Translations under genes and position numbers: made by a program
The notes under the pieces: model-generated
Database searches by the model: none
What the model saw: the letters and a program-made list of their open reading frames with translations, nothing else
Told to the model about the DNA's origin: nothing
In this document: positions 1-15,426 of the stretch, piece after piece
Layout: each line of letters begins with the position of its first letter
Position numbering within the stretch: the first letter of the stretch is position 1
Assembly (NCBI RefSeq): GCF_019744875.1
Contig: NZ_JAIETU010000005.1
Location: forward strand, 62,001 to 126,000
From: Hyphomicrobium sp.
GTDB taxonomy: Bacteria > Pseudomonadota > Alphaproteobacteria > Rhizobiales > Hyphomicrobiaceae
Direction: 5' to 3'
Length of the DNA: 64,000 bases

Positions 1-192
1 ACCTTTCCAAGCCAAAAAGGCACTGACCATGCCAAGACGCCAGCGTCGCTCCCCGGCATCTTCAGGAAGCGGAACAAACACCAAGAGTGCAGAACCGTCC
101 GGCATCTGGACACGGAACCGAGGCACGATCTCCTCGCCGCCCAGGATGATCGATGCCGAAAATCGAAGCTCGTCCTCGATCAACTCGCGCAT
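1..192 (-). CDS. Unknown protein, 3' part outside window
   Basis: The first 64 codons of a minus-strand gene that runs off the left edge of the window. The ATG at 190-192 is preceded by AAGGA with a 6-nt gap, a good ribosome binding site. The visible product begins MRELIEDELRFSAS and is acidic, without a signal peptide or membrane segment; it contains short alternating hydrophobic stretches (SIILGG, ALLVFVPLP) that suggest a beta-rich fold. I do not recognise the family. It starts 56 nt downstream of the subtilisin-like protease gene and has the same orientation, so it is probably the last known member of the ubiquitin-like/AAA/protease operon. Start and strand are directly supported; function is unknown. 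Confidence 0.55.
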   Translation of the reverse strand, partial: MRELIEDELRFSASIILGGEEIVPRFRVQMPDGSALLVFVPLPEDAGERRWRLGMVSAFLAWKG

Positions 193-248
193 CGTCGTTC
201 CTTCGGGATCGCGTTGCCTTGTGCCAACAGGATATTCCTGCTTCTTGC

Positions 249-2462
249 TCAGGTCCTCACCGGGATCTCGATGACGGGACGCAGTGGCTCTAGCTGGGTT
301 GCGTATTTTCTGACCACCTGATTGTACAGATCGGGAATCGCCTTCGACTGCACCGTGATGACCATCGCATAGGTCAATGGCAGCTCCGGTTCAAAATCCC
401 GGCCCTCGAGGCGTGCCACGTAATGAATGTCGAAAACCGGGTTGCTAAGGCTCTTGCCTTGAAACCGGTTCGACGCATGTAGGCAGTTCTCCCACTTCCA
501 GGCATCGCGCCGCAGCTCGTCCTCAGTCATCCCCTTCTGGGTCTTTCCAAAGAAGCTCTTTGAATCGGCGTGGACCTGTTCAGGCTTCTTTCGCCTGCCA
601 TCATGCGGGCGGAACACCGGCTCCAAACCTGCGCGCGTGTAGTTTCCCGGATGGTGGGAGTCTACGTCCGTGGAAAAGCACAAAGTCGCTTTGATCGTGA
701 CCATCCCCTTCAGCGCGCCGAGTGGAACCGGCACTGGAGCGCGAATGTACTGTCGCGCTGATATCTCGCCCTGATAGACGACCCGCACCGTGTCATCCGG
801 GCACTCCACCACATCGTGGAGAGATCTCGCCACCCTTCCCCGCCCGACTTCGGAGCAATGATGGGTGCAGGGCTCAAGTGAATGAACGACGAGAGCGTGA
901 ACTGCGAGCGTGCTAAGCGTTGGCCCGAAGTGAGCGCGAATTCCGGTCGCGAGCCGCAACGTGCTTGGCGCCGCAAACGATGTGCCTTCGGTGCCTTCCA
1001 GTGCGGGCGTCGTCGAGGCCGAAAGCACCACGAACGGCCGTTGCAGGATATCGCCGCCAAACTCGACCAAGTCCGGCTTTACAATGCCCGGACTTCTGCC
1101 GGGTCCTACAGAGCTGTAGGCCGCACGGGCCCACGGCTTGTCCGGGCTGTCGCACGCTCCCACCGCCATCGCGTTCACGCAATCCGAAGGAACCTGGACA
1201 CGGTCGCGTCCGGCACCTTCAGCGCCACCATTGCCCACGGCAATCGTCGCCAGCGTCTTTCCCCGCGCCAACCGGTCGTCGATCACGGCTGTCCAGGGAT
1301 GGACGTCGTCGTCTTCGATCGGCACTTTGGGACCGATGCTCAAATTCACGAAGTCGTAATGCTGGCTATTGAGCACCTTGTCGATGCGCGCGAGAACGAC
1401 CGCTAGTTCGTGAGGGTCCTGGCCCGGTGTCGTGTCGAACACGCGATAATGATCCACCGCCGTATAGGGCTGCGGAAGCGGCTTTCCCGGCTCGATGTGA
1501 CCGAACAGGAATGCCGACGTCACGGCCGTGCCATGCTCGCTAAATTCCGGAATTGTCCCGCCGCCGCCGGTGGCGTCAATTGGCGTAGCCCAGGTCGAAA
1601 GAGGATGTTGATCCGGGAGCCCGCCATCGAAAATCGCTACGCGCAGGTTCGGATCGACAGGCCCTACCGCCGGCATGGCGACTGCCTTCGAGGAGTAACC
1701 GGTCGTTCGAAATGAGGGGCGAAGCAGCCGAATCTTCGGCATCTGCCTCACAGCGCGCACCGGCGTGAACAGCGCGATCTCATCTGCGAGGTCAACTGGG
1801 GCATCGAGATCGACGAAGCAAAGACCGCCGGCGTAAAACTGACGCTCAAACCGCGGTTTGAGGCCCAGTCGTCCCAGGTATTTCTGGAACATCGGAACGA
1901 TCCGCCGGGCACCCGTTGTCTCGCCGGCGTGCAGCACGATTTCAAATACGATCTCACCCGATTCCGGCAGCTGGCCTTTTATTTTCTCTTCGACCGTCGG
2001 CGCATGGATCTCCTCGATCGTAGTGAACCCTTTCGCGACGGCCCCTTCACTGCCCCAGTTCAGAAGGCCGGCGTCCCATTCCCGAAACGCGCTTCGGCGG
2101 CCCATGACAAAAAGCTGGGTCGTCAGCGCTTCCTCAGGCTCGCGGTTCTTTGAGCGTTTGGCCGGCAGGATCTTTCGGGGGCGGCTACCGACCGTGGTGA
2201 GGCCGACGGCTCTGATCAGATCGGAAGGGTAATATGACTTCGCGATGTACTCTGGATTGATCGTCAGGGCCGCGACCGCCTGGTCGTCAGGACATGCTTC
2301 GGCAGGAAGCTCATCAATGCTCCTGGCGACCTTCCCGATCATCGGACGCAGCCGACTCCGGGCTTCGGCGAAGGTGTAGACGTGATGTTTCTCACCGCCA
2401 CCCCTGACGCCAATGGTTTCCTGAACCAGACGCTCGCCCTTGCCGAGAAGATAATTGGTCAT
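249..2462 (-). CDS. Subtilisin-like (S8) serine protease, IetS-like
   Basis: A 737-residue cytoplasmic-looking subtilase with no signal peptide. The first ~265 residues are an N-terminal region without a recognised motif; the S8 domain follows with Asp279 (VAIFDGGL), His310 (SEHGTAV), oxyanion Asn411 (AVGNGG) and Ser495 (GTSFAAP), so the triad is complete. The final ~200 residues are an extra C-terminal region. Its ATG overlaps the stop of the upstream AAA+ ATPase gene as ATGA, implying translational coupling. AAA+ ATPase plus large S8 protease pairs are known as IetA/IetS, first described on an Agrobacterium Ti plasmid and later reported as an anti-phage system. I infer membership of that class from pairing, order and size, not from alignment. 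Here the pair follows a ubiquitin-like operon, so it could degrade tagged proteins. Confidence 0.85.
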   Translation of the reverse strand: MTNYLLGKGERLVQETIGVRGGGEKHHVYTFAEARSRLRPMIGKVARSIDELPAEACPDDQAVAALTINPEYIAKSYYPSDLIRAVGLTTVGSRPRKILPAKRSKNREPEEALTTQLFVMGRRSAFREWDAGLLNWGSEGAVAKGFTTIEEIHAPTVEEKIKGQLPESGEIVFEIVLHAGETTGARRIVPMFQKYLGRLGLKPRFERQFYAGGLCFVDLDAPVDLADEIALFTPVRAVRQMPKIRLLRPSFRTTGYSSKAVAMPAVGPVDPNLRVAIFDGGLPDQHPLSTWATPIDATGGGGTIPEFSEHGTAVTSAFLFGHIEPGKPLPQPYTAVDHYRVFDTTPGQDPHELAVVLARIDKVLNSQHYDFVNLSIGPKVPIEDDDVHPWTAVIDDRLARGKTLATIAVGNGGAEGAGRDRVQVPSDCVNAMAVGACDSPDKPWARAAYSSVGPGRSPGIVKPDLVEFGGDILQRPFVVLSASTTPALEGTEGTSFAAPSTLRLATGIRAHFGPTLSTLAVHALVVHSLEPCTHHCSEVGRGRVARSLHDVVECPDDTVRVVYQGEISARQYIRAPVPVPLGALKGMVTIKATLCFSTDVDSHHPGNYTRAGLEPVFRPHDGRRKKPEQVHADSKSFFGKTQKGMTEDELRRDAWKWENCLHASNRFQGKSLSNPVFDIHYVARLEGRDFEPELPLTYAMVITVQSKAIPDLYNQVVRKYATQLEPLRPVIEIPVRT

Positions 2463-3616
2463 CGCACGAGCCTGAGATTAGCTTTCGACGCCCGCCTTCC
2501 CCGTGACTTCGGATCGTCCCCCTTCGTCGCGCGGCTGCGGATCGTGTCGCGTGACACGCCGGTTAGCTCGTGTGCGCGCCGTTGCGAAACAAGCCCTTGG
2601 TGCACCAGCGCTGTCGCCATGGCAATGCGATCCGCCTTGGAGCGCTTGTCCATCTGCACGAGGGCTTCGAGCTTGTCATCGAGCGGCGTTTCCATCACCG
2701 CCGAGATCCGCCGGGCCGTGAGGATGTCCCGTTCGATGTCACTGAATGAGTGACCCGCCAGGGCAATTCCCAGCACCTTCGCCCAGCTTGACGCCTTATT
2801 CGTATGTGGCTCTAACAGCTGTCCAACCATGTTTGTGATCGAAGCCTGATCGGGCAGCGGAAATTTGACGACCGCTTCAAAGCGGCGCCACACGGCAGGG
2901 TCGAGCAGATCATCGTGGTTGGTCGCCGCCAGCAGAAGCCCGGTGGAAGGCCAGTCGTCGATCTGCTGCAGCAAAACTGTGACAAGCCGCTTCAGCTCGC
3001 CGATCTCACCCTTGTCATCGCGGCGCTTCGCGATGGCGTCGAGCTCGTCCAGAAGCAGTACGCAATCAAGCGATTTGGCGTAATCGAGCACGAACCGAAG
3101 GTTGGTTCCGGTACGCCCCAGAAAGCTGCTCATGACGGCCGCGAGATCCAGTATGAGGAGCGGCTTGTTCAGCTCTCTCGCAATCCACCGAGCGACCATC
3201 GTCTTACCGACACCCGGAGGCCCAGTAAAAATGGCGCTTCGGGTCGGCAACAGGTTTACCTTCAGCAGCGCTTCCGGTTTGCGGCGTTCCCGGATAAGGC
3301 GCACCAGCTGCTCTTCGATGGCAGCATGAAGAACGGGTTCATGGTCAAGTTCCGGGTGTTCCTCAACCCGCATCAATTGAAGGCGGGAATCGATATCGAC
3401 AGGGAGCGGAACGTCCGCGTGTCGCCGCAGGGGCGAACACTTGGAGGGAATCTCCCGCAGAAGCTGGGTCAACTCAGCCGCCAGTCGCGGCGAGGAATCG
3501 CGATGGCGCTTGGCGGCGCGGTGCACCGCCAATTGCACGTCCTGCCCACGCCCCGAAAGGGCGACTTTCGCAAGGTGGATGAAGTCGGCTTCAACATCGG
3601 GTTTTTTATCGGTCAT
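2459..3616 (-). CDS. AAA+ ATPase, IetA-like, with C-terminal HTH-like segment
   Basis: A 385-residue AAA+ protein. Walker A is GPPGVGKT (residues 132-139), Walker B is LLLDELD (187-193), the sensor-1 stretch is AATNHDD (230-236) and a double Arg follows in WRRF (243-246), consistent with an arginine finger. Residues 1-120 are helical and charged; residues ~305-345 (LVSQRRAHELTGVSRDTIRS) read like a helix-turn-helix, unusual for an unfoldase. The ATG at 3616 follows GGTGGGGAC; in-frame starts up to 3784 lack a better site and would leave almost no gap to the E1-like gene. With the chosen start, 171 nt separate it from the E1-like gene, the only sizeable gap before the protease. It probably powers or gates the coupled S8 protease. 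Confidence 0.85.
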   Translation of the reverse strand: MTDKKPDVEADFIHLAKVALSGRGQDVQLAVHRAAKRHRDSSPRLAAELTQLLREIPSKCSPLRRHADVPLPVDIDSRLQLMRVEEHPELDHEPVLHAAIEEQLVRLIRERRKPEALLKVNLLPTRSAIFTGPPGVGKTMVARWIARELNKPLLILDLAAVMSSFLGRTGTNLRFVLDYAKSLDCVLLLDELDAIAKRRDDKGEIGELKRLVTVLLQQIDDWPSTGLLLAATNHDDLLDPAVWRRFEAVVKFPLPDQASITNMVGQLLEPHTNKASSWAKVLGIALAGHSFSDIERDILTARRISAVMETPLDDKLEALVQMDKRSKADRIAMATALVHQGLVSQRRAHELTGVSRDTIRSRATKGDDPKSRGRRASKANLRLVR

Positions 3617-3668
3617 GTCCCCACCAGCATACATGCCGATGGACGACTCCTCAAAGCCACGATGGAAA

Positions 3669-3723
3669 ATTCGTCCACAGGGTTCACCAGAGCTGATTTT
3701 GCGGACAACTCGCGTGGACGAAT
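3669..3723. promoter_or_regulatory. 10-bp inverted repeat in the AAA+ gene leader
   Basis: ATTCGTCCAC at 3669-3678 and its exact reverse complement at 3714-3723, separated by 35 nt, lie 53-107 nt upstream of the AAA+ start in the only sizeable gap between the E1-like and AAA+ genes. They could be paired operator sites or form an RNA hairpin that attenuates read-through from the ubiquitin-like genes. There is no U-run after the second arm, so it is not an ordinary terminator. Confidence 0.4.
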
Positions 3724-3787
3724 ATGAAGGCATTTTCGCCGATACATCATCGGCCCCGACCACGGCAACAAGAGGAAAGACCATGGA

Positions 3788-4672
3788 CTACCTCCCGGCC
3801 AGCGAGAGCAGCCAGTTCACCCAGCGCGGCCACGCACGCGCTGCGACCTGGGGCGGGCGGCGCAGATGGGCCCGAATGTCGAATAACGGATCACCCGCTT
3901 CATCCGCCGGGTGGTGAGGACATACCGAACCCTGCAGGACGTCTGCCCGTGGGCTCGGCACCATCGTCCCCTTGTTCCCGTCATAGATCAGATAGGCGAA
4001 TGCAAGCGGCTTGCGGTGCCAGGGGGTCAACACTTGCATCATCAGCCCGACGGCGGTCGAGGCAAGCACAGCGTTAGGCCAGACGACCTGCGGCCGTCCA
4101 CCGACAGCACCATACTTCCCCGCCTCAAAGCCCACACGCTCGTCCGTGATCACGCCGCAGCACCGCAGGCAAGGATAGCCCGGCGTCGAGAGCACGACCT
4201 GACCGGCCACCAGGAAACCGTGGGGCTGGATGTCGTGTACATCCATGCCCACATCGATGTACGGGATGAGATTGCGCCGGGCGAAGCGCTCCAACTGTTC
4301 TCGCTCGCTGAACGTGTCGACGGCGCCGATGATGAGATCACAACTTTTCAACTCTTCCGTCGCGTCGTGCCACGACTTCTTCACTTCCAGGATGTGCGCC
4401 CCGGGATGGACGCCTCGGATCGTCCGCGCCGCTATCGCCGTCTTGAAAGCCCGTCGGAGTACATCCAACAGCGTTCCGCCCACCAGGCGGTTCGTGTTGC
4501 TGAGGTCAATCTGGTCGGGGTCAACCAGCACATACCGGCCAATGCCAATGTGTCCGGCCTGCTGAGCGACGTGCGACCCGCCGCCACCGAGACCAACGAT
4601 CCCGATCTTCGTCGAGGCCAGAACGCTCTCGCTCTTCGCGCCCAGAAATTCCTGCCTAACCAACCTGCTCAT
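3788..4672 (-). CDS. E1-like (ThiF/MoeB/UBA) adenylating enzyme
   Basis: A 294-residue member of the E1/ThiF superfamily, which adenylates the C-terminal glycine of ubiquitin-like proteins. The Rossmann nucleotide loop is GLGGGGSH (residues 27-34), followed by Asp51/Asp53 (LVDPDQI) and the NTNRL motif (59-63), which corresponds to the (N)xNR signature of E1 enzymes. A later GAVDTF is the typical domain core, and CLRCC together with a later CPHH may bind zinc. Candidate thioester cysteines lie in the CLRCC cluster. The ATG at 4672 overlaps the stop of the JAB protease gene as ATGA. It is probably the activating enzyme for the multi-ubiquitin protein encoded upstream. Confidence 0.88.
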   Translation of the reverse strand: MSRLVRQEFLGAKSESVLASTKIGIVGLGGGGSHVAQQAGHIGIGRYVLVDPDQIDLSNTNRLVGGTLLDVLRRAFKTAIAARTIRGVHPGAHILEVKKSWHDATEELKSCDLIIGAVDTFSEREQLERFARRNLIPYIDVGMDVHDIQPHGFLVAGQVVLSTPGYPCLRCCGVITDERVGFEAGKYGAVGGRPQVVWPNAVLASTAVGLMMQVLTPWHRKPLAFAYLIYDGNKGTMVPSPRADVLQGSVCPHHPADEAGDPLFDIRAHLRRPPQVAARAWPRWVNWLLSLAGR

Positions 4673-5172
4673 GCCGGACTCCATTTCATCATGGCCGCGC
4701 CCACCGCGACGAAATCGTTGATTTCCACCGATGCTGAAGCGCGATTGAGCCAGATCTGACCGCGCGCCGCCTGATCGCTCAGGACAAGCGCCCCATGCGC
4801 GCATTGCGGCGCGACCTTGAAGAAGTCGGGCACGAATTTCTTGTTCTCGCGGATATCAACGCTGCTGAAGCCCGGGATACCCCGGCCGCCATGCGTGTGA
4901 ACGTGGAAGATCGCGTGCCCGTTCTGCATCGACCATTCGAGCGCCCGCCGAATGGCCTCGCGCCCCATCATCGCGCCGACCGAGCGATCGTCGAGATAGT
5001 CTTCATCCCGCACCCCGCGGTAGCTTCGCGCCAAAACGAGGAGGTCCCGCCCCATCGTGGAGAGTCCCGCCGAGACAAAACCCACGCGTTCATGCGCAAA
5101 CGCGTGCGGCCTTTGCAGGTCACTGCGGATCTCGGCGAGCAGCGCCTGCGTGATCTTGAACCGAACCCTCAT
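4669..5172 (-). CDS. JAMM/JAB (Mov34-type) metallo-isopeptidase
   Basis: A 167-residue Prok-JAB family protease. The JAMM zinc motif is visible: Glu28 (AHERVGF), His92-Thr-His94 (HVHTHGG) and Ser103-x-x-Asp106 (SSVD). The family cleaves after the Gly-Gly of ubiquitin-like proteins, either maturing precursors or removing the modifier from targets. The multi-ubiquitin protein here ends in Gly-Gly-Ser-Ser, exactly the kind of precursor tail that such an enzyme would trim. The chosen ATG (5172) overlaps the upstream stop as ATGA; the open frame extends 13 codons further but the coupled start is preferred. No signal peptide, so cytoplasmic. Confidence 0.88.
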   Translation of the reverse strand: MRVRFKITQALLAEIRSDLQRPHAFAHERVGFVSAGLSTMGRDLLVLARSYRGVRDEDYLDDRSVGAMMGREAIRRALEWSMQNGHAIFHVHTHGGRGIPGFSSVDIRENKKFVPDFFKVAPQCAHGALVLSDQAARGQIWLNRASASVEINDFVAVGAAMMKWSPA

Positions 5173-5501
5173 GCCACCGCCCTCAAATGAGCGCACAGCA
5201 TCGAAGGCCACGCCATCGTTTCAGGCACGTTCTGCCACGACGGAGCCAACCACTCGCGCTCAGCGACACGGAAACGATTCCAGTTCGCACCTTTTCCCGG
5301 AACCTGCCGCTCGAAAAACAGGCGCGTCATGTACCCACTGTGCAGCGCCGGAAAGAGCAACAGATCCATTCGCTGATCCGCATCTCCGGCGCGAAACGCG
5401 AAGTCCCGAAGAAGGACGACAGGAACGCCGCCCTCCTTCATCAGTGCGCAGTCCGCATGCAGCTTGCGAAGCGCATCGAACCCTACCGCTTCCGGACTCA
5501 T
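5169..5501 (-). CDS. Small E2-like (UBC-fold) protein of a bacterial Ub-like system
   Basis: A 110-residue protein encoded between the multi-ubiquitin and JAB genes, with ATGA overlaps on both sides (start chosen at 5501; an in-frame ATG at 5516 is less likely). The spacing of hydrophobic strands, the LLLFPALHSGY stretch (like the FPxxYP of E2 enzymes), the tryptophans of WNRF and W..SWQN, and the C-terminal WPSMLCAHL helix resemble the compact prokaryotic E2 families found with multi-ubiquitin genes. I see no cysteine at the usual E2 active-site position; the only cysteines are Cys18 and Cys103 near the two ends. It may be a divergent conjugating enzyme or a non-catalytic scaffold. The assignment rests mainly on position and rough pattern. 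Confidence 0.6.
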   Translation of the reverse strand: MSPEAVGFDALRKLHADCALMKEGGVPVVLLRDFAFRAGDADQRMDLLLFPALHSGYMTRLFFERQVPGKGANWNRFRVAEREWLAPSWQNVPETMAWPSMLCAHLRAVA

Positions 5502-6190
5502 GACGAGCCTCCGCACGGCGCCTGGCTGATGAATTTCATGCCCTGCTTGACGCGGACCTTATCGCCAGGCTTCAACGACACCAGCTGGCCGTCCCTCATG
5601 ACGTCGAGCACGTAGCCGTTCTCGACGCCGAAGAGCACCATCAGTTCTTCGGTCGTGTAGACGCCGCGGGGAATCTCGCGATCATCCCCGTTGTATGAGA
5701 CCGTCACCGTCCCTTTGCGGGTCTTGAGGTGCTCCGTCCCCTTCTTGCCGAGCCGGACCGTGTCGCCGGGCTCGAGTTCGCGGTCGGGTGCGTCCTCGCG
5801 CTCCAGAAGGATCACCTTGGTGTCCGGGACACTGGCGAGTTCACGCAGCCGCTCCTCCGCGATTTCGTCCGCTCCCCATTCGTACCCGCGCTCGTCAACC
5901 GTGAAGCTGAACACGCGGTCGCTGGCAAAGGCGAAAAAGGTGAACACGCCGCCGCGGCGCATATCCACGGTCTCATCGAGACCGATGGAGACGGATGCCC
6001 GGTCCAGAGCCCGGATCAGCACGTGGTCCGAAGCAGGATCAAACCCACCCGCCGACAGCAGCTGGCGGGCTGTCGGAACGGCGTCAGTCAGATGGACGCG
6101 GTCCCCGTTGATGAACAACTCGGCCTTGGCACCGCCAGGATGGGCGGCCTCGGCAATATCCGCGGCAACGCCGCTCACTCCGTGACTCAT
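5498..6190 (-). CDS. Multi-ubiquitin (tandem beta-grasp) protein with GG-SS tail
   Basis: First gene of the operon, 230 residues. It reads as three beta-grasp modules of about 70 residues: ~10-75 (starting AELFINGDRVHLTDAVP), ~80-149 (FSFTVDERGYEWGADEI) and ~149-225 (TVTVSYNGDDREIP), each with the beta-turn-beta, helix, beta pattern of ubiquitin-like domains. The second and third match the known bacterial multiubiquitin pattern (LEPGDTVRL, LKPGDKVRV). The protein ends CGGSS, so removal of two residues would expose Gly-Gly for adenylation by the E1-like protein. ATG 6190 is preceded by GAGGAG with 7-nt spacing. It is divergent from the XRE regulator and shares its operator region. The target of modification, or whether the protein polymerises, cannot be told from sequence. 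Confidence 0.87.
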   Translation of the reverse strand: MSHGVSGVAADIAEAAHPGGAKAELFINGDRVHLTDAVPTARQLLSAGGFDPASDHVLIRALDRASVSIGLDETVDMRRGGVFTFFAFASDRVFSFTVDERGYEWGADEIAEERLRELASVPDTKVILLEREDAPDRELEPGDTVRLGKKGTEHLKTRKGTVTVSYNGDDREIPRGVYTTEELMVLFGVENGYVLDVMRDGQLVSLKPGDKVRVKQGMKFISQAPCGGSS

Positions 6191-6238
6191 GATGCACTCC
6201 TCTGTTCGTTTCCTGCCCCTCATGGGGCCTTATCTGCA

Positions 6239-6267
6239 TAGATAACAGAGCGTGCTTGATATATCAA
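6239..6267 (-). promoter_or_regulatory. Probable promoter of the ubiquitin-like operon
   Basis: On the minus strand TTGATA (6267-6262) and TATCTA (6244-6239) are 17 nt apart, resembling sigma-70 -35 and -10 elements; the -10 is weak. The -35 lies inside the perfect 16-bp palindrome at 6254-6269, so a repressor bound there would block the promoter. Distance from the -10 to the multi-ubiquitin ATG is about 50 nt. Confidence 0.45.
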
Positions 6268-6269
6268 GC
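6254..6269. promoter_or_regulatory. Operator box 1 (perfect 16-bp palindrome)
   Basis: GCTTGATATATCAAGC is a perfect palindrome in the 159-nt divergent region between the multi-ubiquitin gene and the XRE gene. Three related boxes occur at 6283-6298, 8396-8411 and 8427-8442, all sharing the CAAGC half-site ending. It is the likely binding site of the XRE regulator encoded at 6350. Confidence 0.65.
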
Positions 6270-6282
6270 GTTTACTTTGCGC

Positions 6283-6298
6283 GCTTGACTTAGCAAGC
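6283..6298. promoter_or_regulatory. Operator box 2 (imperfect palindrome)
   Basis: GCTTGACTTAGCAAGC keeps the outer GCTTG/CAAGC arms of box 1; the start-to-start spacing is 29 bp, close to three helical turns. It overlaps the -35 (TTGACT) of the XRE promoter. Confidence 0.6.
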
Positions 6299-6313
6299 GG
6301 CGCGGTGCAAAAT
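6285..6313 (+). promoter_or_regulatory. Probable autoregulated promoter of the XRE operon
   Basis: TTGACT (6285-6290) and CAAAAT (6308-6313) are separated by 17 nt, a reasonable sigma-70 promoter reading toward the XRE gene. The -35 is embedded in operator box 2, which suggests autorepression. Confidence 0.5.
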
Positions 6314-6349
6314 AGCCTGAATAATCAAAACGTTCGGAGGAGTGCGCGG

Positions 6350-6742
6350 ATGTCGAACGAGAAGCAAAACGAAGAAACCGGGGTTACTTTGGGGCAGCAT
6401 CTTGCCCAGGTTCGTGCTGGTAAGAAGCTCAGCCTCCGGCAAGTTGAGGAGGCGACGAACAAGGAGGTATCGAATGCTTACCTATCGCAAATAGAGAACG
6501 ACAAGATCAAACAGCCGTCGCCCAACATACTCAACGCTCTGGCTGAATTGTACGCGATAGACTTTCAGGAATTGATGCGAATGGCGGGATACGTCAGATC
6601 TTCAGCCAACTCCACGGGCGACGCTCGACACGGCCGAGTCGGAACGTTTGCCGAATACAACCTCACCGGCGCGGAGGAATCCGCGCTGGTCGAATACCTT
6701 CAGTTCATTCGGGGAAGGAAAAAGCCAGGTGATCAAAGCTGA
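6350..6742 (+). CDS. XRE-family HTH transcriptional regulator
   Basis: A 130-residue Cro/CI-type DNA-binding protein. The helix-turn-helix is in the N-terminal half (TLGQHLAQVRAGKKLSLRQV through NAYLSQIENDKIKQPSP, residues ~12-60), with the typical SQIEN recognition region and a following NALAELY helix. ATG 6350 has GGAGGAG 8 nt upstream; the frame is open 15 codons further but lacks a comparable site. It is translationally coupled to the ImmA/IrrE-type peptidase gene, a pair known from ICEBs1 (ImmR/ImmA) and from Deinococcus IrrE/DdrO, where the peptidase cleaves the repressor to switch on the target genes. It probably represses the divergent ubiquitin-like operon, itself and the small RNA at 8246-8374 through the four palindromic boxes. 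Confidence 0.88.
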   Translation: MSNEKQNEETGVTLGQHLAQVRAGKKLSLRQVEEATNKEVSNAYLSQIENDKIKQPSPNILNALAELYAIDFQELMRMAGYVRSSANSTGDARHGRVGTFAEYNLTGAEESALVEYLQFIRGRKKPGDQS

Positions 6743-7694
6743 TGATTGCAGCCTCGATCCGAGCGCGTTGCGCTCGGTTGAAGAGCGTGCACGCGCCCTC
6801 CTCAACCGAGCAGAAGTCTGGGACAGGTTTCCGACGCCCATCGAAGACATTCTTGCCGCGGCGAACCTGCGGGTCGAAAAAAAATGCCTTCAGGACGCCG
6901 ACGGGTTCATGGCGTATCTCGCCGGCAAGGCCGCGCACATCGCCACTAAAGCCGCCGAGACACTGAGCGCCGTCAAATCGGCACTCACCAAGGTTTTCGG
7001 CATCTACGATCCCGGCGATTCCATCATCCACATCGACGACACCGTCTCCGGTTCGAAACAGAACTTCCTCAAACTCCACGAGACCGGTCATCACGAGCTT
7101 CCGGCTCACCGGAAGATGTTTCGGTTCTTTCAGGATTGCGAACAGACGCTCGCGCCGGAAGTCGCGGACCTGTTCGAAAGAGAAGCCAACAACTTTGCCC
7201 GCTTCGCTCTGTTTCAAGGAGGCGCCTTCTCGGCCATGGCCGCCGATTGCCCGCTCTTGATCAAGACACCGATGAAGCTGGCTACAAAGTTCGGGGCGTC
7301 GATCTACGCCTCGGCGCGCGAGTTCGCTAGAACCAATCATCGCGACTGTCTGGTGGTCGTGCTCAACCGCGCCGAATACATCAATGGCGCCGGGATGCGA
7401 GCATCCGTCAGGCGGATCGAGCCGTCGCCGTCCTTTAGGGCCAAGTTTCCGATACCGACGGACGAGTGGATTACCCTAGATCACCCGCTCGGTAGGCTGC
7501 TTCCCCGGCACGGACAGCGCATGGTCAAACCTACCTCTCTTGCCATGCGAGACCTAAATGGTCAGCGCCAAGAGTGTATTGCGGAATCCTTCGATACCAC
7601 GCACAATATTATCATCCTGCTCTATCCCCAAAAGGCGCTGACAACGACCACCGTCATCCTGCCTGCCGGCTTCAAGCAGGCGGGCAACTTTTAA
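6729..7694 (+). CDS. ImmA/IrrE-type metallopeptidase
   Basis: A 321-residue zinc peptidase of the ImmA/IrrE (COG2856) family. The HExxH motif is HETGH (in LKLHETGHHELP, near residue 120) and the third ligand is in the downstream FEREANNFARF helix, the family's ExxAN pattern. The preferred start is GTG 6729, which overlaps the XRE stop and follows GGAAGGA at 8-nt spacing; an upstream in-frame ATG at 6648 would lie deep inside the XRE gene. In known systems such peptidases cleave a partner XRE repressor in response to DNA damage or another signal. The C-terminal half (~170-321) is longer than in the simplest ImmA proteins and could be a sensory part. Confidence 0.87.
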   Translation: MIKADDCSLDPSALRSVEERARALLNRAEVWDRFPTPIEDILAAANLRVEKKCLQDADGFMAYLAGKAAHIATKAAETLSAVKSALTKVFGIYDPGDSIIHIDDTVSGSKQNFLKLHETGHHELPAHRKMFRFFQDCEQTLAPEVADLFEREANNFARFALFQGGAFSAMAADCPLLIKTPMKLATKFGASIYASAREFARTNHRDCLVVVLNRAEYINGAGMRASVRRIEPSPSFRAKFPIPTDEWITLDHPLGRLLPRHGQRMVKPTSLAMRDLNGQRQECIAESFDTTHNIIILLYPQKALTTTTVILPAGFKQAGNF

Positions 7695-7708
7695 GACGAG
7701 CGGGTCTC

Positions 7709-8245
7709 TTGAGAGTTTTTAAATCCATAACAATTCAGGGTGCGGAATATAATTTCGAACATCTGGTTCCGATCACTATTGAAGTGACCGCAGGCAAGGA
7801 CACACAGGCGCGCACCTACAAGGTGCTGGTGAATTTCAGCTGCCACTGCTTCACGGAAGAACTCGACGATCAGATTCACACGCCGGACTACCATTACGTC
7901 CATGAGAACGAACGCCGCGCGTTCTGCCCGGTTCGTTACGAACTCTCAAGGGGCCTGCCCGACATCATCCGAGAGATCGGCAACAAGCGCGTCTATTTCA
8001 CCTGGGAGCGCAACTACGTCTACATCGAGCAGGTCGACGACCAGGGAGAGGTCGTGCCGTATACGATTTTCTTCGACGTGAAGCGCGGCAACAAGGGCGT
8101 CGCCGATGTCGTCATGACCATCGTCAGCGCCTACGCAAAGCCGGGCATGGCAAAGCAGGCGTCTCCTATCCGCTTCCCTATGCTCATCGCCAAAACAGCG
8201 CGCGGCGAGAAACCGACGATCTCAAAACCAGGTGGCATTCGCTGA
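7709..8245 (+). CDS. Unrecognised protein, third gene of the XRE/ImmA operon
   Basis: A 178-residue protein starting at TTG 7709, 14 nt after the ImmA-type stop; the open frame runs upstream into that gene but no better start with a binding site is seen. It has no signal peptide or membrane segment. Clustered cysteines (FSCHCF, then RAFCPVRY about 35 residues later) could bind metal, and the middle part (RVYFTWERNYVYIEQVDD) is beta-rich and aromatic. The tail is basic (KTARGEKPTISKPGG). I do not recognise the family. Its place in a repressor/peptidase operon beside a ubiquitin-like system suggests a regulatory, sensing or effector role, which is inference only. Confidence 0.7.
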   Translation: MRVFKSITIQGAEYNFEHLVPITIEVTAGKDTQARTYKVLVNFSCHCFTEELDDQIHTPDYHYVHENERRAFCPVRYELSRGLPDIIREIGNKRVYFTWERNYVYIEQVDDQGEVVPYTIFFDVKRGNKGVADVVMTIVSAYAKPGMAKQASPIRFPMLIAKTARGEKPTISKPGGIR

Positions 8246-8374
8246 AAAGAAAATAGGCCCCGCAGGGCCTATCCTTGGAGCTTTCGCTCCCCGCGAGACC
8301 CTCTTAATCGCCTGCGCGCCGCAGGGACCGGTTTTACCCGGCAGGGTGACCGTGTTTCACTCGCTCTCGATCAC
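8246..8374 (-). ncRNA. Predicted structured small RNA (~125 nt)
   Basis: A minus-strand transcription unit is implied by a promoter at 8409-8380, no coding frame of note, and an intrinsic terminator at 8272-8245. The predicted transcript would begin near 8373 and contain several short hairpins: CCTGCG/CGCAGG (8311-8325), a GGAGC-GAAA-GCTCC stem with a GNRA tetraloop (8277-8290), and the terminator stem. The -35 overlaps an operator box, so it is probably controlled by the XRE regulator. The 3' end abuts the stop of the unknown gene on the other strand (8245), with little or no overlap. I do not recognise a known RNA family. Confidence 0.5.
8247..8272 (-). terminator. Intrinsic terminator of the predicted small RNA
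   Basis: An 8-bp perfect stem, ATAGGCCC (8253-8260) and GGGCCTAT (8265-8272), with a 4-nt loop. On the minus strand the stem is followed by TTTTCTTTTC; on the plus strand it is followed by CCTTGG, so it is oriented to stop leftward transcription. It may also slow plus-strand transcription leaving the unknown gene. Confidence 0.7.
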
Positions 8375-8379
8375 ACTTC

Positions 8380-8409
8380 ATTATATAGCGAGCGCGCTCG
8401 ATATTTCAA
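8380..8409 (-). promoter_or_regulatory. Sigma-70-like promoter of the predicted small RNA
   Basis: On the minus strand TTGAAA (8409-8404) and a consensus TATAAT (8385-8380) are 18 nt apart. The -35 is inside operator box 3 (8396-8411). This is the best-looking sigma-70 promoter in the island. Confidence 0.6.
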
Positions 8410-8411
8410 GC
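8396..8411. promoter_or_regulatory. Operator box 3
   Basis: GCTCGATATTTCAAGC matches box 1 (6254-6269) at 14 of 16 positions. It sits over the -35 of the small-RNA promoter. Confidence 0.58.
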
Positions 8412-8426
8412 AATAACAACGCGCCT

Positions 8427-8442
8427 GCTAAGTATATCAAGC
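8427..8442. promoter_or_regulatory. Operator box 4
   Basis: GCTAAGTATATCAAGC keeps the TATATCAAGC half of box 1 exactly. It starts 31 bp after box 3, mirroring the 29-bp spacing of boxes 1 and 2. Confidence 0.52.
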
Positions 8443-8585
8443 AAGATGGGCGTTGATATACGGGATGTCAAGGCTGCCGGCCTTGTAGGCGCGGATTACC
8501 CGCGGATACGCCCGTCCTTGGTATATCCGCGGTATAATGACCGCAGGTCAGGGACCGGGCAATTTCTGTATGTGATTGAAATAAT
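8443..8585. other. Probable island/tRNA junction with inverted repeats
   Basis: A noncoding stretch between operator box 4 and the 3' end of tRNA-Pro. It holds a perfect 9-bp inverted repeat, CCGCGGATA (8500-8508) and TATCCGCGG (8524-8532), and a CAAGG/CCTTG pair near 8470-8486. Such repeats are common around integrase core or arm sites. The tRNA-proximal end would be the attachment-site side if the island inserted at the tRNA 3' end; the matching direct repeat should lie left of the window and is not visible. Confidence 0.4.
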
Positions 8586-8663
8586 TGGTCGGAGCGAGAG
8601 GATTTGAACCTCCGACCCCCAGTCCCCCAGACTGGTGCGCTAACCAGGCTGCGCTACGCTCCG
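8586..8663 (-). tRNA. tRNA-Pro (anticodon GGG)
   Basis: The minus strand folds as a cloverleaf: acceptor CGGAGCG/CGCTCCG, anticodon stem CCAGT/ACTGG around a 7-nt loop CTGGGGG giving anticodon GGG, T-arm with GGTTCAAATCC, and an encoded CCA at 8588-8586. It decodes CCC/CCU proline codons. Its place after merR and the acyltransferase gene fits conserved alphaproteobacterial order; its 3' end faces the island. Confidence 0.95.
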
Positions 8664-12264: not shown

Positions 12265-13344
12265 CTATTTTTCCTCGTGAGAGCCTACCGGAGCGGCTTG
12301 CGCCTCGGACGCCACCGCGCTGTCAAGGCGGTGGTGGAACGCCTCAAGGTCGGCGGCCAGGCGCTCGAGCAGCCCGCTCTCCGACATCTCGTAACCGAGA
12401 TCGACGGCGCTCGCAAAGCCCAGCGCGTCCGTGCCGCCGTGGCTCTTTACGGCAATACCGTTCAACCCCAGGAAAGTCCCGCCGTTTACGCGGCGCGGGT
12501 CCATTTTGTCCTTCAGCACGCGGAAGCCGCCGCGGGCCAGAAACGCGCCGATTTTGGACAGCGTCGTGCGCATCATCGCGTCTTTGAGGTACTGGCCGAT
12601 CTGGCGCGCGGTGCCTTCGGCCGTCTTGAGGGCGATGTTGCCGGCGAAGCCTTCCACCACGACGACATCGACCCGGCCCTGGCCGATTTCGTTGCCTTCG
12701 ATAAAGCCGTGATAATCGAGGGGCAGCTCCACGGCCTTGAGAAGGACGTTGGCTTCCTTGACCTCTTCGGCGCCCTTGATCTCCTCGACGCCGACGTTGA
12801 GGAGGCCGGCTGTCGGGCGCTCGATGTGAAAGAGCGCGCGCGCCATGGCGGCACCCATGAGCGTGAATTCACAAAGCTGGCGTGCCGTGGCGCCGATGTT
12901 GGCGCCGACATCGAGAACGATGCATTCGGCGGTGATCGTGGGCCAGAGCGCGGCAATCGCGGGCCGCTCGATGCCGGCCATGGGGCGCAGGATCAATTTG
13001 GCCATGGCCATCAGCGCGCCGGTGTTTCCGGCGGAGACCGCAGCGTGCGCTTCGCCTTTTTTGACCGCCTCGAGGGTCAGCCACATGCTGGAGCCCTTGC
13101 CACGGCGCAGCGCCTGGCTGGGCTTCTCGTGCATCGAGACGACCTGGGACGTGTGCACGACGCGCGACTTGGCCGCGAGCGCCGGGCGTTCGGCCAGCAG
13201 CGGGGCGATGCGTGCTTCGTCGCCGAAGAAGATGAAACTCAACGCAGGGTGTCGCTCAAGCGACAGCGCCGCGCCCGGAACGACAACTTCGGGGCCGTGG
13301 TCTCCCCCCATGGCGTCGAGCGCTAGTGTTCGCGGCAAAGCCAT
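12265..13344 (-). CDS. plsX: Phosphate acyltransferase PlsX
   Basis: A 359-residue enzyme that makes acyl-phosphate from acyl-ACP for phosphatidic acid synthesis. The N-terminal [13 protein letters not shown] is the family signature, and [21 protein letters not shown] and [13 protein letters not shown] are conserved in it. Upstream of fabH in the standard plsX-fabH arrangement. The C-terminal ~30 residues are a variable tail. Confidence 0.96.
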
Positions 13345-13640
13345 GTGGCGATCTTCAACCTGTCAACGAACTGGGCCCGGACTTCCGAGTGTAAGGTCTT
13401 CTGCAACGGTCTTCCGCATCGAGACTTCTGCAACGAAGCGACGGCTCGTGCCCGGCACGGCTCTGAGGCCGGCGGCTCGCGTTCCCCGCGCCGAAGCCAT
13501 CCCCCGAGGTAAAGCCTGCGGGAAAATACAAGTTTGCTTCCCCGAGACAACCACTTTCCGCAGTTGCGAACAGGGCGACAAATATGCCTCGGAGAGCCCG
13601 CGGCGTGGGGCTGCGGGCTGCGATTGCGCATTTTCCCGCG

Positions 13641-14174
13641 CTACGGCTTGGGCTTGAGCTTGGCCAGCGCCGCGAAGGGGTTGGCGGCTTCGGGATCCGC
13701 CTTGATCTTGGGATCGACCCAGTCGAACTCGGCATTGGCGCTGCGCGGATAGGGATCGAGAGCCGCTGAAATCATGCCGAAAACCATCGTTCCGACATCG
13801 ATCCGGCCGTCTTCGATCGGCTCGACGTCAGGCATGCTCAGGATCTCGCGGTCGCCGGCGGGCGCGGGCTCGTCTTCAAGTGCCTCGGGCGGGCCCAAGT
13901 CGATGGAAAACGTCTCTGAAATGCGTGCCGGAACGGGCTCGAGCGTCACGACGCAGGCCTGCGACACGGTCGCTTCGAGGGATCCCGTAAAGCGATAGCG
14001 GTCCTTGCCCAACGACTTGATCGCGTAGTCCACGCTGACGCTGTCGCAGGCCAGGATGTCGAGCTCGCGCGCCAGCTCGATGCGCTCCTCTTCGGTGGCC
14101 TGGCGGGTGCGGCTCAGCGTGCGGTGATCGCCGATTTCCGTGATCTCGTGGGTCCAGTCGCGCAGGGCGGTCAT
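13641..14174 (-). CDS. DUF177 (YceD-like) protein
   Basis: A 177-residue member of the DUF177 family, of which YceD is linked to ribosomal large subunit/rRNA processing. The conserved central part is LGKDRYRFTGSLEATVSQACVVTLEPV around residues 55-80, followed by acidic segments and the C-terminal NPFAALAKLK that is typical of the family. In many bacteria it precedes rpmF and plsX; here rpmF is absent and a 296-nt noncoding gap separates it from plsX. Follows the bc1 chaperone gene by 15 nt. Confidence 0.85.
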   Translation of the reverse strand: MTALRDWTHEITEIGDHRTLSRTRQATEEERIELARELDILACDSVSVDYAIKSLGKDRYRFTGSLEATVSQACVVTLEPVPARISETFSIDLGPPEALEDEPAPAGDREILSMPDVEPIEDGRIDVGTMVFGMISAALDPYPRSANAEFDWVDPKIKADPEAANPFAALAKLKPKP

Positions 14175-14189
14175 GCGGGTCTCCCGGAA

Positions 14190-14729
14190 TTATTCGGCGC
14201 GAGGCGACGCGAAATCCGCGACGGCGGCTGCGAGCCGATCGAGCGGCACGGTACCAAGGTGATCCTTGAACTTCAAAATCCGGCGCGCCATGGCGTCGGC
14301 GCCCTCAGAACTCGCGTCCAGGCCTGGAACGGAGGTGGCAAGCTCGGCGCTGAGCGCGGCGACCGGATCGGCGGCCTGCACGGCGCGGCGATAGGCCAAG
14401 CAGCGCTCCCCCAGCGCCTGGGCCGCGCGCTTGACCTTTTTCGGCACGGACATGTCGCCGACGCCCATCTCGCGCAGCGTGTCGTCGACATCGGTGACGA
14501 ACGTTTCGCTCAAGTACCTCGCGAGGCGGGCGGTTTGCCGCCCCTCGGTCCCCAGACGCTCAAGCACCGGAAATATCACGGCGATGATCATCGCGGTGCG
14601 GCCTTCTGGCGTATCCGAGACACCCTGGCTGCCAAAAAACGCCGGCTGCCTGGCCTGGGTCACGACCGCGCCATAAAGGTCGATTGCTGTGCGTCGGTCT
14701 TGGGCTCGGCTTTTCAACCAGGTGAACAC
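14190..14729 (-). CDS. Ubiquinol-cytochrome c chaperone family protein (CBP3-like)
   Basis: A 179-residue protein of the family related to mitochondrial Cbp3, which assists assembly of the cytochrome bc1 complex. Family features are the N-terminal YGAVVTQARQPAFF, the FPVLERLG segment and FVTDVDDTLREMGVGDMSVPK. No signal peptide. It diverges from bamE and precedes DUF177, a gene order shared by many Hyphomicrobiales. Confidence 0.87.
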   Translation of the reverse strand: MFTWLKSRAQDRRTAIDLYGAVVTQARQPAFFGSQGVSDTPEGRTAMIIAVIFPVLERLGTEGRQTARLARYLSETFVTDVDDTLREMGVGDMSVPKKVKRAAQALGERCLAYRRAVQAADPVAALSAELATSVPGLDASSEGADAMARRILKFKDHLGTVPLDRLAAAVADFASPRAE

Positions 14730-14829
14730 GCAGGTTTTTCCGTCTCGTATGTCAGGGGATGGCGGTGGCCGTGCAGTTGCCTACTGCCCGCCTTTTAAGC
14801 TAAGGGCGGGATATGAGCGCAGGGAAATC

Positions 14830-15426
14830 ATGAGTCTCCAAGGGGGTCGTTGCAGCATGCGCCGTTCGGACGCATCGCGCCAGGGCGCGTCAGGTCAAAT
14901 GCGCCAGGGCGCGTTAGGCAATGGGCGCAAGGGCGCGTCTGACACCTCGCAGCGGCGTGCGGAGAGCAACCGTGGCGCCGATCTTGCGCGCCGCACGCTC
15001 ATCCCCGTTTTGATCGCGATGACCATCACGGTCTCCGCCTGCAGCGAGCAAATCACCAAGCACGGGCACCTGTTCCGCGAGACGGATATTGCCCAGGTCC
15101 AGCCCGGCATGGGGCAGGAGCAGGTGCGCCTGGTTCTCGGCACGCCGACGACGACCACCACGACCGGTTCGGGTTCCGTCTACTACTACATCTCCAGCAC
15201 CGAGAAGAAGACGGCGTTCTTCAAGAGCGACGAGGTGGACCGGCAGGTGCTCGCGGTCTACTTCACGCCGACGCAGACCGTCGACAGGATCGCGAACTAC
15301 GGTCTCAAGGACGGCAAGGTGTTCGACTTCGTGTCGCGCACGACGCCGGCTCCTGGCGGCAAGGAAGACGGCATCATCAAGCAGCTCTTCCGCAACCTCG
15401 GCGCCAAGCAGATCTTCGGCGAATAG
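14830..15426 (+). CDS. bamE: Outer membrane assembly factor BamE (SmpA/OmlA)
   Basis: A 198-residue lipoprotein of the BAM complex. The hydrophobic segment LIPVLIAMTITVSAC ends in a lipobox cysteine at about residue 71; the BamE core follows (GHLFRETDIAQVQPGMGQEQ, then LGTPTTTT and YYYISSTEKK). The start at 14830 (AGGGAA upstream) gives an unusually long, basic pre-signal region of ~50 residues, which contains a three-copy 8-residue repeat. A later start is possible but no better site is seen. Diverges from the bc1 chaperone gene. Confidence 0.9.
   Translation: MSLQGGRCSMRRSDASRQGASGQMRQGALGNGRKGASDTSQRRAESNRGADLARRTLIPVLIAMTITVSACSEQITKHGHLFRETDIAQVQPGMGQEQVRLVLGTPTTTTTTGSGSVYYYISSTEKKTAFFKSDEVDRQVLAVYFTPTQTVDRIANYGLKDGKVFDFVSRTTPAPGGKEDGIIKQLFRNLGAKQIFGE
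14877..14948 (+). repeat. Three-copy 24-bp tandem repeat in the bamE 5' end
   Basis: Units at 14877-14900, 14901-14924 and 14925-14948 each begin GCGCCAGGGCGCGT or a one-base variant. The period is in frame, encoding QGASGQMR, QGALGNGR and KGASDTSQ ahead of the BamE signal segment. Confidence 0.7.

Follow-up and report, generated by a model that had tools for sequence, protein, structure and literature searches.

A multi-ubiquitin-like operon followed by an IetAS-like AAA+/subtilase pair in Hyphomicrobium, a possible exchangeable proteolytic arm of bacterial ubiquitin-like pathways

Can a bacterial ubiquitin-like (Ubl) pathway be linked in function to a protease pair encoded next to it? The question is raised by a 64,000-nucleotide stretch of Hyphomicrobium sp. 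DNA (contig NZ_JAIETU010000005.1, positions 62,001 to 126,000 of the forward strand; hereafter the window), where six genes on the minus strand between positions 249 and 6190 encode a Ubl protein, an E2-like protein, a JAMM protease, an E1-like enzyme, an IetA-like AAA+ ATPase and an IetS-like S8 protease. A preliminary description had listed these genes and suggested that the modifier marks proteins for unfolding and cleavage; open reading frames (ORFs), Pfam and PADLOC found all six where it had placed them. We read the locus as a CapH/CapP-controlled Bub-type (polyUbl) pathway with an IetAS-like pair as an exchangeable proteolytic arm, and put the probability of this reading at about 0.43. 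Its part best supported by sequence comparison is that the IetAS arm would be separately regulated and exchangeable between Bub and Bil pathways. As various bacteria have brought the Ubl and IetAS modules together more than once, the two may cooperate, perhaps in a simple tag-and-destroy response against viruses.

IetA relatives were sought in 84,980 genomes, and the best 80 loci of at least 492 relatives were annotated with hidden Markov models of Ubl systems; as these models derive from loci of this study, with Bil represented by BilC and BilD of one locus pair, other Ubl types may be missed. A Ubl system lay within 10 kb in 16 of the best 80 loci (14 Bub, 2 Bil), no Ubl system was found in 43 that had 4 kb or more of flanking sequence on either side, and 21 were cut by contig ends. 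The six-gene order of the window recurs in five other alphaproteobacterial loci (L130, L131, L147, L148 and L154 in our numbering), the last three being the Bub loci of this order among the best 80. L130 and L131 lie on plasmids of Methylovirgula 4M-Z18 and Bradyrhizobium 62B and carry the six genes together with divergent helix-turn-helix (HTH) and ImmA genes. The order is repeated by a distant IetAS in genome G245, the distant analogue being L042. Elsewhere among the best 80, AAA-S8 precedes Bub (L149, L150, L151, L157, L159, L162, L174 and L180), or Bub is convergent with IetAS (L156, L158) or divergent from it (L195); on three Rhizobiaceae plasmids, IetAS is convergent with a Bub operon having a fused JAB-E1 gene.

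The Ubl partners also vary in type. Separate JAB and E1 genes, Prok-E2_E with JAB-ThiF, and DUF6791-ThiF with DUF6527 were all seen as Bub subtypes in a check that drew on proteins of L149, L150, L180 and L195. The fused JAB-E1 gene of L195 is firm (JAB before E1 by eye), and a small Ubl candidate, with no Pfam match, was picked out there by eye. L174, L180 and L195 are metagenome-assembled genomes labelled Acidobacteria, Verrucomicrobiales and Obscuribacter, with binning as deposited. In two Bradyrhizobium loci (L169, 5622-13371; L179, 5638-13368), a Bil operon is divergent from an HTH-M78-IetA-IetS series; BilC and BilD were assigned by model, and BilA and BilB are candidates by position and eye. 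The preliminary description had named occurrence in this genome only as telling against it. That objection falls, since the modules are joined in other genomes as well, and repeatedly; of its interpretation as a whole, the combination stands, and the surveys discussed below found both modules mostly apart. Among the papers listed by our literature search, none pairs IetAS with Ubl operons, the key Bub papers (Gong 2025, Ye 2026) and Chambers 2024 lying outside it, and the passages on Bub/6e polyUbl systems in PMC13373217 and PMC1779556 name no AAA/S8 partners.

Within each module the genes overlap by ATGA, at 5498-5501 (Ubl/E2), 5169-5172 (E2/JAB), 4669-4672 (JAB/E1) and 2459-2462 (AAA/S8), which bears out the coupling described earlier. 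The Ubl gene (5498..6190) encodes three beta-grasp domains, visible as three stretches of PF14452 (Multi_ubiq, 4.7e-28), so the tandem architecture first proposed is right and its domain number of two is not. The protein matches solved bacterial multi-ubiquitins (PDB 9d59, 8u38 and 9d5b, E 3.5e-16 to 5.2e-16; also 9cd2). Its C-terminus is PCGGSS, as in 5/6 linked loci by alignment, with PCGASS in the remaining one, and four relatives without AAA/S8 nearby end in P[AV]G[QH]SS; the GG-SS end noted earlier is thus real in the window, and its GG is not conserved outside the linked clade. The next gene (5169..5501) encodes a 110-residue protein of putative E2 fold (UEV/BubB-like) with no Pfam match and no relevant PDB sequence match. 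Its model, of low confidence (predicted local distance difference test, pLDDT, 54), matched the ubiquitin E2 variant (UEV) domain of Tsg101 (Z 8.3, 99 residues, 3.2 Å) and also E2s; against Citrobacter BubB (9eae_C) it reached Z 5.6, a range (below 8) that may reflect a common arrangement alone, as the tool warns. The E2 likeness claimed earlier may thus be right, as a UEV/E2/RWD fold match of this low-confidence model. Assignment of this clade to the Prok-E2_E type was tried by profile comparison and given up as unsupported (probability 6.7), and Prok-E2_B (PF14461) had no match in the window's own genome, a search in which the control gave none either.

The JAMM metalloprotease (JAB), a putative deconjugase (4669..5172), had no Pfam match and no relevant PDB sequence match (E up to 0.1). 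Its active-site pattern E28, H92, H94, S103 and D106 is invariant in eight sequences, the window included, in agreement with the JAMM protease proposed before. The E1-like ThiF-fold adenylyltransferase (3788..4672) was likewise correctly called: it matches PF00899 (1.6e-25) and, as its nearest PDB entry, Citrobacter BubCD (7.3e-13). Its adenylation-site glycines and NxNR are conserved in the alignment, and CxxC and CxH are presumably zinc-binding.

The AAA+ ATPase (2459..3616; 385 residues from the start supported by relatives) and the S8 protease (249..2462; 737 residues) match Pfam AAA (5.2e-29) and Peptidase_S8 (7.6e-17), and with PADLOC scores of 9.2e-81 for IetA and 6.7e-36 for IetS they form the adjacent pair of IetA/IetS type that had been described. 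We name the pair IetAS-like because both proteins fall far under the NCBIfam equivalog cut-offs (IteA 237.6 of 510 bits, IteS 91.4 of 900 bits). The ATPase has a Walker A motif, an F-L-G pore loop and, by eye, an HTH-like C-terminal end; the pore loop is Y/F-L-G in 85 of 93 IetA rows, L-L-G in 7, and one parsed otherwise. Among the best 60 of its 227 PDB sequence matches, a Cdc48-type protein and a vesicle-fusing ATPase come before many p97/Cdc48 entries, and the p97/Cdc48 matches fall by position on the second AAA domain. In the protease, the triad D279/H310/S495 and N411 are invariant in 19 sequences, and the model (pLDDT 81) has the fold of subtilases (Z 23.4), with a further match to pro-subtilisin E (Z 21.5). 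Because the latter fold match begins at residue 169, residues ~169-240 of the model look like a propeptide-like domain; no signal peptide was visible by eye. A second IetA/S8 pair is present in the window's genome (L229, G000:C7, 9403-12870), with no Ubl genes found in the 19.9-kb stretch examined.

The two modules are probably transcribed apart. An open frame for AAA runs from 3784, but the start common to its relatives in the alignment is at 3616; counted from there, 171 nt (3617..3787) lie between E1 and AAA, which are not coupled. The order and direction reported earlier, AAA/S8 after the Ubl genes, are correct, and a coupled junction between E1 and AAA is replaced by this gap, for which L130 has 176 nt and L131 has 154 nt. 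In the window the gap holds IetA-type operator sites (TCGTCCA/TGGACGA), located by motif search at 3640, 3671 and 3715. The motif TGGA[AC][GT]A / T[AC][GT]TCCA, first noticed in some of the loci later counted, is present two or more times in the 250 nt ahead of 63/93 IetA genes, where Markov resampling gave an expectation of 0.5. An inverted pair stands 29-32 nt apart in 52/93 upstream regions (30 or 31 nt in 45), and the sites span phyla, with lineage variants. With its own operator sites and a gap upstream, AAA-S8 is probably transcribed as a separate unit, and IetA may autoregulate it through its HTH-like end.

The Ubl operon appears to answer to other regulators. Divergent from the Ubl gene, on the plus strand, lie a CapH-like HTH repressor gene (6350..6742; HTH_3 5.1e-9, PADLOC HTH_VI 2.1e-9, and a weak capH match of 0.0023) and a CapP-like M78/ImmA-type peptidase gene (6729..7694; PF06114 6e-5, PADLOC capP 2.5e-15). 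Homologous HTH/M78 pairs stand beside L130, L131, L136, L138, L139, L147, L148, L154, L156 and L158. The divergent promoter region (6191..6349) contains, by inspection, the palindromes GCTTGATATATCAAGC (6254) and CGCTTGACTTAGCAAGCG (6282), which differ from the IetA-type operator motif; that motif does not occur in the stretch from the Ubl gene to the HTH gene. Another sequence, TGCTAAGTATATCAAGC near 8426, is similar to these palindromes, and the CapP-like gene is followed by a 178-residue protein (7709-8245) with no Pfam or PADLOC match. By analogy with the systems described in passages of PMC13373217, CapH/CapP control suggests DNA-damage induction.

On an IetA tree of 93 sequences, of which 23 rows carry the Ubl label, the label requires 7 changes against a shuffled mean of 19.8, with 0/500 shuffles as low; near-copies make such tests look stronger than they are, and L042 sits on a long branch. 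Eight arrangements of the genes also need 7 changes, the fewest possible overall. The six-gene group alone needs 2, and the window stands apart. Inheritance of the six-gene cassette as one unit is plausible from these comparisons. Of the 43 rows in the IetA clade that includes the window, 19 are linked, 15 are unlinked and 9 are cut.

If the modules act together, DNA damage or infection would lead CapP to lift CapH repression, and E1 would activate the Ubl, which would then be joined to target proteins or built up on them. The IetA ring, with its F/Y-L-G pore loop and p97/Cdc48 relationship, would then engage and unfold the Ubl-marked protein, IetS would cut the unfolded chain, and the JAMM enzyme would take the Ubl off. 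The target would probably come from a phage or plasmid, or be a host protein whose loss leads to abortive infection. By analogy with p97, we infer that IetA's substrates are marked by the Ubl, which would thereby direct proteolysis. A further-reaching version, in which the locus would be a bacterial equivalent to the ubiquitin-p97-protease route, handing Ubl-marked proteins to a p97-like ring and then to a subtilase, with the arm captured independently by Bub and Bil, seems to us somewhat unlikely. A recurrent AAA+/protease partner would make tag-directed destruction directly testable in a compact six-gene cassette.

Several observations weigh against joint action. AAA-S8 has its own operators behind a gap of 154-176 nt in the window, L130 and L131, and a Pfam scan found no Ubl-binding domain in AAA or S8. 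The E2-like protein has no conserved cysteine among nine aligned sequences, a correction to the earlier description, and any conjugation may therefore depart from the canonical route. Pairwise identities of Ubl, JAB, E1, AAA and S8 correlate with r 0.89-0.98 (15 pairs, six loci), falling to 0.23-0.70 (10 pairs) for Ubl/JAB/E1 versus AAA/S8 once the window is removed; co-divergence of the modules is therefore weakly supported, the correlation resting on the window's distance. IetAS accompanies 2/53 Multi_ubiq loci (the window and L042) and is missing from 51/53; this sample is 52 loci plus the window, with a weak PF14452 match in G455 and a second match in G152 left out, and with L045, L052 and L125 on contigs below 5 kb. 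Bub or Bil adjoins two (again the window and L042) of the 46 PADLOC IetA matches, found in 44 of 397 genomes of the order, and 0 of the other 44. Not every one of those 44 loci is a complete IetAS, since an S8 gene was detected in only 15 and contig ends truncate 12. Nor was Bub or Bil found in the 28 viral-contig IetA loci annotated (out of 48; identity at least 38%, several contigs short), and no E1 in viral contigs was confirmed. With 0/44 other order loci and 0/28 viral loci having Bub/Bil, the association lies mainly in one IetA clade. Six other plasmid IetAS, one of them of the same clade (Paracoccus plasmid L140), had no Ubl genes within 8 kb, and close E1 relatives without IetAS occur in Sphingobium, Methylocystis, R. 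leguminosarum pRL4b1 and Bosea plasmids.

Some neighbors seen in these surveys are recorded here for their own sake. L044 has an AAA+ ORF ~8 kb from its Ubl gene, and one of the 44 order loci (L259) has a CBASS-type E1-E2 gene (13152-14858) 2.7 kb from its IetA-like gene. In R. leguminosarum pRL4b1 and Bosea (L134, 9035-14874; L135, 9162-14992), Bub lies beside PD-(D/E)XK and UvrD genes without IetAS, in the same direction in one locus and convergent in the other, possibly a second exchangeable module. Flavobacterium IetAS follow directly after Septu (PtuA/PtuB) genes in L178 and L185.

The occurrence of each module mostly without the other would suit an explanation in which Bub and IetAS, each complete, travel together in defense islands (on plasmids and integrative elements) and remain linked through covering different phages. 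It is also favored by the weak co-divergence without the window, by IetAS operators that are present with or without Bub nearby (two or more sites in 17/21 Bub-linked and 31/51 other rows), and by the defense-island background in which other IetAS adjoin Septu, restriction genes and others. Random company, however, fits poorly with a Ubl system in 16 of the best 80 loci when polyUbl was found in only 33/397 genomes of the order, or with the joining of both Bub and Bil in eight arrangements. In a control of 16 non-Bub loci of the window clade (135 ORFs, 128 and 7 in two scans), from which the L169/L179 Bil loci came, the other defense systems located each reached at most 2/16 loci among the families listed (for PADLOC neighbors, the best 25 of 117 matched families in the 128-ORF scan). 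We regard independence as doubtful but a real contender. The Ubl could instead regulate IetAS, switching the protease on or off through conjugation to IetA or IetS or through binding by one of them, as CBASS conjugation primes CD-NTases, or IetS could be a zymogen-like toxin activated by IetA or a Ubl event; taken together, these variants seem improbable. They would suit the modeled propeptide-like domain before the IetS catalytic domain, a separate promoter keeping effector apart from regulator, and the increase in CD-NTase activity by CBASS conjugation described in part of PMC10449767. They sit badly with same-clade IetAS lacking Ubl genes nearby, on the Paracoccus plasmid and viral contigs, since IetAS must then be controllable without Ubl. 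The GG-SS end of the Ubl and the protease encoded nearby also brought up maturation of the Ubl by S8, cutting the tail after GG; we rejected this as very improbable, because in four relatives, none with AAA/S8 within 8 kb, the Ubl still ends in SS and a JAMM gene is present.

The setting of the locus resembles that of an island. It adjoins tRNA-Pro (8586-8663). Matches to the seven other genomes of the genus begin at about this tRNA, and no genome among them matches window positions 8250-8560; we therefore take tRNA-Pro to mark an island edge (8245-8663). A second copy of the tRNA end (att site) was sought in window positions 1-8500 and over 40 kb to the left of the window, with matches of 10-11 nt only. 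Left of the window, MobC- and relaxase-like ORFs were seen by eye (L001, 11643-13642), which fits a mobile element.

Which known systems does the locus resemble, then? Bub operons, or group 6e of Iyer 2006, comprise a polyUbl, an E2/RWD-like protein judged inactive, a JAB and an E1, and CapW or CapH plus CapP adjoin 219/544 of them, according to parts of PMC13373217 and PMC1779556; phage protection by Bub operons is described in passages of the former as so far not demonstrated. The locus shares with this group its tandem beta-grasp Ubl, a BubC-related E1 and CapH/CapP-type regulators, and differs in having JAB and E1 as separate genes with an ATGA overlap, not a BubCD fusion, and in the added AAA/S8 pair. 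DUF6527 was not found in its genome. As the JAB-E1 fusion is a subtype trait, we class the locus as Bub-type and not as a canonical BubCD operon. Like IetAS, it has an AAA+ gene followed by an overlapping S8 gene that match the PADLOC models, and unlike it, the pair lies under the NCBIfam equivalog cut-offs and is linked to Ubl genes. Bil (BilABCD), which reportedly interferes with phage assembly, is likewise a four-gene Ubl pathway, and two Bradyrhizobium Bil loci bear IetAS of the window's clade; no window protein matched Bil models at E 0.01 among the PADLOC families listed (for E1, the best 25 of 26). The ubiquitin-p97/proteasome and Pup-Mpa systems, our working analogy, combine a tag, an AAA+ unfoldase and a protease; the window's protease is a subtilase in place of the proteasome, and its AAA+ ATPase is p97/Cdc48-like by sequence.

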